Below are positions 34,063-36,368 of a stretch of DNA of 64,000 bases, one piece after another (position 1 is the first letter of the stretch; every line of letters begins with the position of its first letter). The notes under the pieces are model-generated. The model ran no database searches. It had not been told where the DNA came from and saw nothing but the letters and a program-made list of their open reading frames with translations. The DNA is taken from contig NZ_CP047588.1 in assembly GCF_011035165.1 (NCBI RefSeq), positions 550,350 to 614,349 of the forward strand, written 5' to 3'. The stretch comes from Buchnera aphidicola (Uroleucon sonchi). Its GTDB lineage: Bacteria > Pseudomonadota > Gammaproteobacteria > Enterobacterales > Enterobacteriaceae. The position numbers were made by a program, and so were the translations under genes.

Positions 34063-34930
34063 ATGATTTTTTATTATTATTTTAAGTGGATAGTATTGTT
34101 TACTTTTTTACTTGCATGTGAAAATCAACACAAAAAATTTTTTGAAAAAGAAGATCTAAAAAAAATCCACTATTTTTTTTTGAACATACACATTTAATAA
34201 AAAAAAAATACCAAATAAAACAAATATAAAAAAATTACAAAAAATTGAAATTATTATAGATGCTGGGCATGGCGGGCAAGATCCTGGAGCTATTGGTCAT
34301 AAAGGATTGCAAGAAAAAACAATAAATATTGCAATTGCATTAAAAATTAAAAAATTATTAAATCATGATCAAAGATTTCATGCAATATTAACACGTACAA
34401 AAGATATTTATCTTTCAATCAAGAAACGTAAAGAATTTTTTAAAAAACATTATGCAAATCTATTAATATCTATTCATGCGGATTCTTCTAAAAAAAAATC
34501 AGCTTCTGGAGCATCAATATGGATAATTTCAAAAAATAGAATGCATCGCGAAATTAATAATTATTTAATAAAACCATCAATAATATTTTTCCCTAAAAAA
34601 ATTGAAAATATTCTGAAAAAACATCAAAACGATATATTTTTGAAAAAAACAATATTAGATTTACAATCTAATGATTTTAAAGATATTGAATTAAAAATAG
34701 CTCGCAATATATTACGAGAGCTCAAAAAAAAGATTAAACTACATAAACAATCTCCAAACTATGCTAGTTTAGGGATATTAAGTTCTATTAATATACCGTC
34801 AATATTAATAGAAACAGGTTTTATTACTAATATTTCAGAAGAAAAAAAATTAAGCACAAAAATTTATCAAAATAAAATTTCAAAAGCTATTTATTTAGCT
34901 ATCAAACATTACTTTAATAATTTAAACTGA
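34063..34930 (+). CDS. amiB: N-acetylmuramoyl-L-alanine amidase AmiB, two homopolymer frameshifts
   Basis: Zinc amidase that cuts septal peptidoglycan at cell separation. The amidase domain is open and well kept: IDAGHGGQDPGA (first zinc histidine, codon 34268), LQEKTINIAIA (zinc glutamate), ISIHAD (zinc histidine) and ILIETGFITN (catalytic glutamate). But that frame has no start codon before IDAGHGG and is closed by a stop at 34181. An ATG at 34063 opens another frame with a hydrophobic signal segment ending LLAC, lipobox-like. One extra T in the 9-T run at 34173-34181 and one extra A in the 10-A run at 34199-34208 would join both into one protein of about 289 residues. The AMIN domain of E. 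coli AmiB is missing. It may be decaying, or rescued by polymerase slippage. Confidence 0.85.
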
Positions 34931-35038: not shown

Positions 35039-35239
35039 TTATAACTTAAAACGTTTTTTAAATCTTTCAACACGACCTCCTGTATCAACAATTCTTTGCT
35101 TTCCTGTATAAAAAGGATGACATTTTGCACATATATCTAAATGAAAATTATGATCAATAGTAGAAAAAATTTCAATTATATTACCGCAAGAACAAGTAGC
35201 AGTAACTTTAGTATAATTAGGATGAATTTTTTTTTTCAT
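35039..35239 (-). CDS. rpmE: 50S ribosomal protein L31
   Basis: Zinc-type L31: the four cysteines are in ATCSCGN and [15 protein letters not shown] and [11 protein letters not shown] match the family. I start at ATG 35239 (MKKKIHPNY, 66 residues; E. coli 70) since the three codons upstream have no counterpart. In E. coli it is divergent from priA; here priA and cytR are missing and the next gene is a short ftsN. Confidence 0.96.
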
Positions 35240-35387
35240 ATAACGCATTCCCGTAATTAATTATAAATATCTATCTTAATCTTTATTATCATTTATAATA
35301 GTTTTAACTTTTTTAGTATAAACATTAATAATATTTCACAAAAAATTATTAATCTATTCGTGATGTAAATTATATGTAGATCAGATA

Positions 35388-35633
35388 ATGTATAAAATCA
35401 AAAAAAAAAGTCATGCGATAAATTTTAAGAAAAATAAAACATACAATAGAAAACGATATATATATATAACTACATGTATATTTATTTTTTTTATTTTATT
35501 AAGCATTATTAATATTTATAGTGTTTCTAAAAAAATAAATCCTAAACATATAATAATCAATCAAAATCATGAATTATTACCTGAAAAACCGAAAAATAAA
35601 TGGAGATACGTTCAGACATTAGAAAATTTATAA
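35388..35633 (+). CDS. ftsN: Minimal cell-division protein FtsN (SPOR domain absent)
   Basis: An 81-residue protein at the ftsN position, just before hslV. A lysine-rich cytoplasmic part (1-24) is followed by one transmembrane helix at about 25-45, then a short periplasmic stretch ending LPEKPKNKWRYVQTLENL. This aligns with E. coli LPPKPEERWRYIKELESR, the essential peptide that activates septal peptidoglycan synthesis; Trp72, Tyr74 and Leu78 correspond to the E. coli residues Trp83, Tyr85 and Leu89 that matter there. The stop follows right after it. The Gln-rich linker and the C-terminal SPOR domain of the 319-residue E. coli protein have no trace in the 204 bases before hslV. Identification rests on this motif, topology and position. 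Confidence 0.8.
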   Translation: MYKIKKKSHAINFKKNKTYNRKRYIYITTCIFIFFILLSIINIYSVSKKINPKHIIINQNHELLPEKPKNKWRYVQTLENL

Positions 35634-35837: not shown

Positions 35838-36368
35838 GTGACTACAATATTAAGTGTAAGATTAAAAAATAAAGTAGTAATTGGAGGTGATGGACAAGCA
35901 ACTTTAGGCAATACAATTATGAAAAGTAATGTAAAAAAAATTAGGTCATTATATCATGACCAAGTAATTGCAGGTTTTGCAGGAGGAACTGCAGATGCAT
36001 TTACTTTATTTGAAATGTTCGAAAAAAAATTAGCCATGTATCAAGGTCAATTACAACGTGCTGCTATTGAATTAGCGAAAGATTGGCGATCAGATAGAAT
36101 GTTACGCAAATTAGAAGCATTATTAGCGGTTGCTGATAAAGATACTTCATTAATTATCACAGGAAATGGAGATGTTATACAACCTGAAGATGATTTAATA
36201 GCTATAGGATCCGGAGGATCTTATGCGCAATCTTCTGCTAAGGCATTAATAGATAATACAAATTTAAATGCGCATGAAATTGTAGAAAAATCATTACATA
36301 TCGCTGCTAATATTTGTATATATACAAATCATATATTTACTATAAAAGAACTATTTTCAGAAAAATAA
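35838..36368 (+). CDS. hslV: ATP-dependent protease subunit HslV
   Basis: Threonine protease subunit of the HslVU (ClpYQ) complex. It starts at GTG with AAAGAGG eight bases upstream; removal of Met exposes the catalytic Thr of [40 protein letters not shown] and [13 protein letters not shown] are near-identical to E. coli, and length 176 is the same. hslU follows after 13 bases, one operon. Confidence 0.97.

Follow-up and report, generated by a model that had tools for sequence, protein, structure and literature searches.

Does Buchnera aphidicola (Uroleucon sonchi) still encode a working FtsN? In a 2023 review, Buchnera has a score of 0% for both ftsN and ftsQ, and the conclusion drawn is that it encodes no homologue of FtsN (PMC10591338). 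The window analyzed here is a stretch of 64,000 nucleotides forming the terminal part of a single 614,349-base contig, whose length, AT content, and genes agree with Buchnera aphidicola. It contains an open reading frame (ORF) that an earlier note on this DNA had read as an 81-residue FtsN. The ORF is present as described, starting with ATG and ending in KWRYVQTLENL directly before TAA (Table 1), and the observation of a minimal FtsN ORF is confirmed.

An 81-codon ftsN lies upstream of hslV

In the window, ftsN is flanked by hslV on the same strand and, on the opposite strand, by a gene that we take from its sequence to be rpmE. In E. coli K-12, ftsN (b3933) is likewise directly upstream of hslV-hslU. 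Residues 75–93 of E. coli FtsN, read from NC_000913, are LPPKPEERWRYIKELESRQ and carry W83, Y85, and L89. The C-terminal end of the window ORF is LPEKPKNKWRYVQTLENL, in which the counterparts of these three residues are all present, in agreement with the proposed alignment to the essential E. coli peptide. The stop codon falls three residues past the position of L89.

Table 1. Features of the ftsN region, in window coordinates
Feature	Position	Strand	Basis or remark
ftsN cut to 81 codons plus stop	35388..35633	+	ORF, profile match, orthologue alignment
Lys-rich cytoplasmic tail, aa 1–24, A-rich	35388..35459	+	Boundary by eye
Membrane anchor, aa 25–46	35460..35525	+	Hydrophobic stretch read from sequences
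E peptide, aa 64–81 (E. coli FtsN 75–92)	35577..35630	+	W72=W83, Y74=Y85, L78=L89
hslV, conserved neighbor downstream of ftsN	35838..36368	+	
rpmE (presumed), neighbor upstream of ftsN	35039..35248	-	Named by sequence
amiB catalytic-domain open frame, 248 aa	34187..34930	+	Amidase_3 profile 1–173; motifs intact
amiB signal-peptide-like ORF, different frame	34064..34198	+	Broken off at T9 run

The NCBIfam FtsN model NF008179 aligned residues 59–79 of the ORF with profile positions 68–90 (E 0.12), scoring 11.8 bits against a curated cut-off of 525. A Pfam scan of the ORF returned DUF1980 alone (E 0.007), a homologous-protein search returned one near-copy, and 79 of 99 genomes contained a match to the ORF at E≤1. 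As these single-sequence matches are too weak, the identification rests on a profile, on synteny, and on relatives. We built an FtsN profile from 14 same-genus ORFs and used it at a threshold of E≤0.01. It matched 227 of 295 family genomes and 32 of 36 genomes of the same genus, counting G017, where the match covers profile positions 1–28 alone because the stretch reads N. Among the free-living matches listed, all lie inside open frames of about 230–400 aa and most end at profile position 81–82, which corresponds to the E peptide. In 17 of 20 stretches, mostly from free-living relatives, the frame of the motif continues for 167–256 residues past it; the remaining three gave no motif-pattern match and were left uncounted. 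The profile agreement exceeds chance and, judged by these lines of sequence evidence, the window ORF is an FtsN orthologue.

SPOR is lost while the amidase domain is complete

No SPOR match was found in the genome of the window (614 kb) at E≤10, as had been claimed, nor in any of the 36 same-genus genomes at E≤0.01; the E. coli control was positive in both cases. This genome-wide profile search led us to reject a SPOR protein encoded elsewhere in the window's genome. A longer ftsN elsewhere, which the earlier note had set against its own reading, was likewise rejected, the sole other profile match (E≤0.01) being weak and containing four stops.

The loss of SPOR had also been related to a poor state of the neighboring amiB, and this part did not hold. 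The amidase domain is complete and retains the motifs DAGHGG, GLQE, SIHAD, and ETGF, which we presume to be catalytic; the damage concerns the frame that joins the signal-peptide-like start to the domain. Because domain and motifs are complete, the catalytic part of amiB is not dead, merely trimmed and frame-broken at one T9 run. The trimming extends to AMIN, for which amiB at 34064–34930 has no room and which gave no match in a scan of the 207-aa amiB ORF alone. Since Amidase_3 is complete and occurs in 33 of the 36 genomes of the genus, amidase decay was rejected as the explanation of SPOR loss.

The C-terminal peptide is under amino acid constraint

All 31 readable orthologues from the genus share the position of the stop codon. 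In the alignment of their last 63 codons, the counterparts of W83, Y85, and L89 and the new C-terminal Leu are invariant (31/31), so the loss or drift of the WRY motif in relatives that had been considered as a refutation is not observed. One Pro is also invariant over these codons (30/30 same-genus ftsN sequences). When 15 disjoint pairs were pooled, the last 20 codons gave a pN/pS of 0.233 and the anchor and linker one of 0.689; the cross-strain comparison that the earlier note had called for thus identifies the last 20 residues as the constrained part. None of 2000 random sets of 20 columns gave a pN/pS this low, and the C-terminal 20-codon window has the lowest value among all contiguous windows. 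When all pairs were used, the values were 0.361 for the last 20 codons and 0.943 for the rest. As pS is as high in the last 20 codons (0.339) as in the rest (0.306), the constraint acts on amino acids. Profile, constraint, and missing SPOR together bear out the proposed reduction of FtsN to anchor plus essential peptide.

Of the 31 orthologues, 13 have a conserved ATGTAY start in frame with an open reading frame behind it; in the other 18 this start was not found, lies in another frame, or runs into a stop. The frame is open across at least the last 63 codons, from anchor to peptide, in all 31. Since the conserved ATG is unusable in those 18, expression of FtsN there needs slippage or another start. 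The RNA polymerase of Buchnera slips on A/T runs (PMC5574713), and such slippage may rescue the ftsN reading frame.

FtsQ, FtsB, and FtsL are reduced in the genus

For E. coli, an inhibitory network has been proposed that consists of FtsQ R196/R213, FtsB E56/E69/R70, and FtsL E88; modelling, simulation, and mutants place FtsN W83, Y85, and L89 at the interface between FtsL AWI and the FtsI neck (PMC10390529). The FtsL E88K substitution lowers FtsN dependence (PMC7733951).

FtsQ was above the cut-off in none of the 36 same-genus genomes, with one chance-level match, and BLASTP in genome stretches found it in 0/30 same-genus compared to 19/19 free-living genomes. FtsB, in ungapped E. coli numbering, ends before residue 69 in 15 of 28 same-genus genomes and at 70–79 in the other 13, none of which carries E69 or R70. 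From the start of its motif to the stop, FtsL spans 18–29 residues in the genus versus mostly 41–56 in other genomes, G156 being an exception outside the genus with 25. The FtsL AWI/CCD segment was examined in 35 same-genus genomes (G005, which lacks an FtsI match, was omitted). In 33 of them its sequence is WRNLI[IL]EK and in G026 it is WRELMIEK; G008 lacks the segment. Wherever the segment is present (34 genomes), Lys occupies the position of E88 (E. coli numbering), where 21/21 free-living relatives have Glu. Other reduced genera mostly have Glu as well, with the exceptions of G331 (Arg), G053 (Leu), G132 (Ser), G174 (Gln), G156 (Asp), and G254 and G123 (Lys).

The AWI segment and the anchor of FtsL share one open frame in 15 of these 34 genomes; in the other 19, including the genome of the window, the open frame is too short to join them. 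In genomes inspected base by base, the break falls at an A-rich tract. At G000:C1:235254-235465, outside the window, ftsL is split at poly(A), with the anchor and coiled coil in one frame and the motif NEWRNLIIEKNALSNH in another. Preservation of the motif despite the frame break argues that slippage products of ftsL are in use. In-frame TGA codons, which may reflect reassigned TGA or pseudogenes, were seen in ftsL of G156 (G156:C1:254430-254666) and, in G189, in the two genes of the FtsW/RodA family (G189:C1:66969-68003 and 347500-348564).

Changes at other activation sites

We compared sites known to activate division in E. coli FtsW and FtsA between 30 same-genus and 19 free-living genomes. 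FtsW M269 is Ile in 23 and Met in 7 same-genus genomes and Met in 19/19 free-living ones, and E289 is changed in 30/30 (free-living: Glu in 17, Ala in 2). In FtsA, G50 and R286 are changed in 30/30 same-genus genomes and unchanged in 19/19 free-living ones, Y139 is changed in 30/30 (free-living: Tyr in 18, Val in 1), and E124 and I143 are unchanged in 30/30. Counts for FtsI and FtsB concern same-genus genomes, without a free-living baseline: FtsI R167 is unchanged in the 10 genomes examined, and FtsB E56, readable in 24, is Glu in 19, Asp in 3, Asn in G016, and Arg in G026. With FtsI R167, FtsA E124 and I143, and mostly FtsB E56 retained, a change at all E. coli activation sites was rejected.

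As a null expectation, we took the columns invariant among free-living relatives and asked which fraction is changed in all same-genus rows. This gave 5/149 for FtsW, 24/220 for FtsA (G50 and R286 included), and 1/14 for FtsL, the single FtsL column being E88, at which 28 of 35 rows are aligned. The FtsL E88 change stands out against this null, and the FtsA changes are suggestive only. Glu to Lys and Met to Ile are also types of change favored by AT bias. FtsA positions 277–299 hold a cluster of residues invariant in free-living relatives and replaced in 30/30 same-genus genomes, a region that we assume to have a role in FtsA self-interaction.

The state of ftsN is linked with that of the FtsL motif within the genus

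Among the 36 same-genus genomes, WRNLI[IL]EK is kept in all 32 that bear ftsN (partial in G017); these and the following figures are plain genome counts that ignore relatedness. The interval before hslV contains no ftsN-like ORF in G005, G008, and G026. G005 has neither an FtsW nor a transpeptidase match. G008 keeps FtsW and FtsI, its FtsL AWI segment is missing, and its FtsB ends at residue 44. G026 also keeps FtsW and FtsI, and its FtsL AWI carries N83E. Thus, the FtsL motif is missing or altered in both clear ftsN losses that retain FtsW. G026 also has Arg at FtsB E56, a position where substitution bypasses FtsN in E. coli. In G009, AWI is intact, and ftsN, hslV, and the amidase were all not found; this genome is a counterexample to co-loss if its ftsN is truly lost. 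Within the genus, the state of ftsN is, by these counts, linked with that of FtsL.

Outside the genus, no FtsN match was found in any of ten reduced genomes without an FtsW match (G040, G045, G050, G056, G104, G107, G126, G133, G137, and G164). Eight genomes have FtsW without an FtsN match (G041, G161, G127, G118, G123, G150, G156, and G158). FtsL too was without a match in G041 and G161, FtsL is broken in G127, and AWI is changed in G123. G118 lost both the W/Y motif and AWI, and its congener G331 retains FtsN and a near-intact AWI. Against this pattern, G156 and G158 retain AWI without an FtsN match, and an FtsN match occurs in G174, G355, and G204 although FtsL R82 and N83 are changed there. 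With exceptions both ways outside the genus, a coupling of FtsN presence to an intact FtsL motif everywhere was rejected.

Short FtsN occurs in other reduced lineages

In 17 further reduced genomes, FtsN has no more than 61 residues beyond the E motif, and in one more it has 88. Between the E motif and the stop there are 2 residues in G162, 3 in G112, G223, and G328, 4 in G331, 11 in G174, 13 in G355 and G222, 16 in G053, 19 in G189, 20 in G254, 23 in G292, 25 in G234 and G168, 33 in G191, 54 in G121, 61 in G152, and 88 in G132. Eight of these 18 genomes (G112, G174, G191, G222, G254, G328, G355, and G152) have a SPOR match somewhere, so that FtsN can lose its SPOR domain without all SPOR proteins disappearing. 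In G152, where ftsN ends 61 residues beyond the E motif, a broken SPOR containing a stop lies just past that cut (G152:C1:82919-83110); truncation may still be under way there. Long FtsN (at least 140 residues past the motif) is present in seven genomes of 0.6–1.6 Mb (G042, G048, G103, G111, G129, G140, and G153).

The state of FtsN was mapped onto a tree of 56 HslV rows, of which 29 have a full and 27 a truncated FtsN. The truncated set contains 12 of the 31 rows from the genus; G191, G254, and G152, in which no HslV was found, were left out. The state changes 7 times (6–8 over bootstraps), and at least 5 changes are forced by well-supported branches; as HslV is short and its bootstrap unsettled, this count is rough. 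The tree does not separate gain from loss of long FtsN, although regain of a SPOR domain is unlikely. FtsN truncation is, on these comparisons, repeated in other reduced lineages.

Discussion

We consider it likely that FtsN in this genus is a working protein consisting of an anchor and the E peptide, which would act through FtsL AWI/FtsI on a responder whose inhibition seems to have been dismantled. The periplasm-tethered peptide would dock on the activation (AWI) face of FtsL and on the FtsI neck, and the docked peptide would hold FtsWI in the active state. The loop of SPOR-amidase recruitment would have been given up, and contact with FtsA was probably abandoned as well. The inhibitory side of the responder looks dismantled in the genus, with FtsQ not found, FtsB without E69/R70, and FtsL E88 replaced with Lys; such an easily activated FtsL could make a short FtsN enough. 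Points against this reading are the 18 of 31 orthologues whose conserved ATG is unusable, G009 should its ftsN truly be lost, the exceptions outside the genus, and the E. coli activation sites that are retained.

Other explanations of the ORF must be weighed against this one. It could be a decaying remnant of ftsN whose erasure is incomplete, as the broken or unfound N-terminal start in 18 of 31 relatives and the absence of ftsN from G005, G008, and G026 might suggest. However, the constraint on the ORF disfavors decay, the stop being shared and the W, Y, and L invariant (31/31) with a pN/pS of 0.23 in the peptide, and the frame from anchor to peptide being open in 31/31; we hold decay to be very unlikely. 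The peptide could also be retained solely to activate the bifunctional synthase PBP1b and not FtsWI, since PBP1b is a binding partner of EFtsN in vitro and is activated by it (PMC7939390, PMC8998562). Yet 10 of the 36 same-genus genomes have one transpeptidase match and no PBP1b, and the ftsN motif is kept in all 10, which leaves this possibility little chance of being right. Finally, selection on the C-terminal codons could reflect a regulatory element of hslV or an RNA structure, with the protein unused. Beyond the position of ftsN just upstream of hslV, we found no support for such an overlapping element, and the pS values (0.339 in the last 20 codons, 0.306 in the rest) contradict it, so that it seems extremely improbable.

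The reading of a working FtsN made of anchor and E peptide can be extended, tentatively and with somewhat less than an even chance in our estimation, to a superfission divisome that arose by natural evolution. In it, the brake formed by FtsQ, FtsB E69-R70, and FtsL E88 would have been removed and the accelerator running from FtsN through FtsL AWI and FtsI to FtsW kept. The peptide would be lost if its FtsL target fails or if FtsB gains a bypass-type change (E56R, as in G026), and FtsL and FtsN would be produced via poly(A) slippage in many genomes.

Nature appears to have repeated the classic laboratory dissection of FtsN: evolution repeatedly stripped the protein of nearly all but the portion deemed essential by E. 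coli genetics, and sites restraining FtsWI in E. coli were also changed in one genus. These observations bear on the open questions of the smallest sufficient divisome and the true role of FtsN. They offer natural minimal sets for reconstitution (FtsWI, short FtsL, short FtsB, short FtsN, and no detected FtsQ) and allow the E-peptide-to-AWI model to be tested by comparing symbiont genomes. The ORF also corrects the review table that scores Buchnera ftsN as absent (PMC10591338). In the available text of the literature on Buchnera FtsN, FtsL, FtsB, and FtsQ, on truncated FtsN of endosymbionts, and on superfission in Buchnera, we found no description of the ORF or of FtsL Lys88.

With full-length E. 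coli FtsN, the symbiont protein shares the site before hslV, a bitopic anchor, and the W83/Y85/L89 residues of the E peptide. Unlike it, it has neither the Gln-rich linker nor SPOR, and ends in ENL where E. coli FtsN has ESRQ. In E. coli, a cytoplasmic FtsN motif around Asp5 binds FtsA, and no clear counterpart was seen by eye in the symbiont tail.

In Serratia symbiotica SCc and STs, FtsN has been described as shrunken to a small N-terminal part; the same account cites E. coli FtsN 1–119 as sufficient and considers most such diminutions common in other small genomes (PMC5013485). Shrinkage of FtsN in symbionts is therefore partly already published, and trimming of the responder is the new part. 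As in S. symbiotica, FtsN is trimmed here to its N-terminal part, but the cut lies at the equivalent of residue 92 and is fixed in 31/31 readable same-genus genomes. The peptide constraint and the changes in FtsL, FtsB, and FtsQ found here were not met in the available part of that account (PMC5013485). With the superfission ftsL* (E88K) strains of E. coli, the symbiont has in common Lys at FtsL 88 (PMC7733951, PMC10390529), whereas its Lys88, known here from genes, is natural and stands alongside an undetected FtsQ and shortened FtsL and FtsB.
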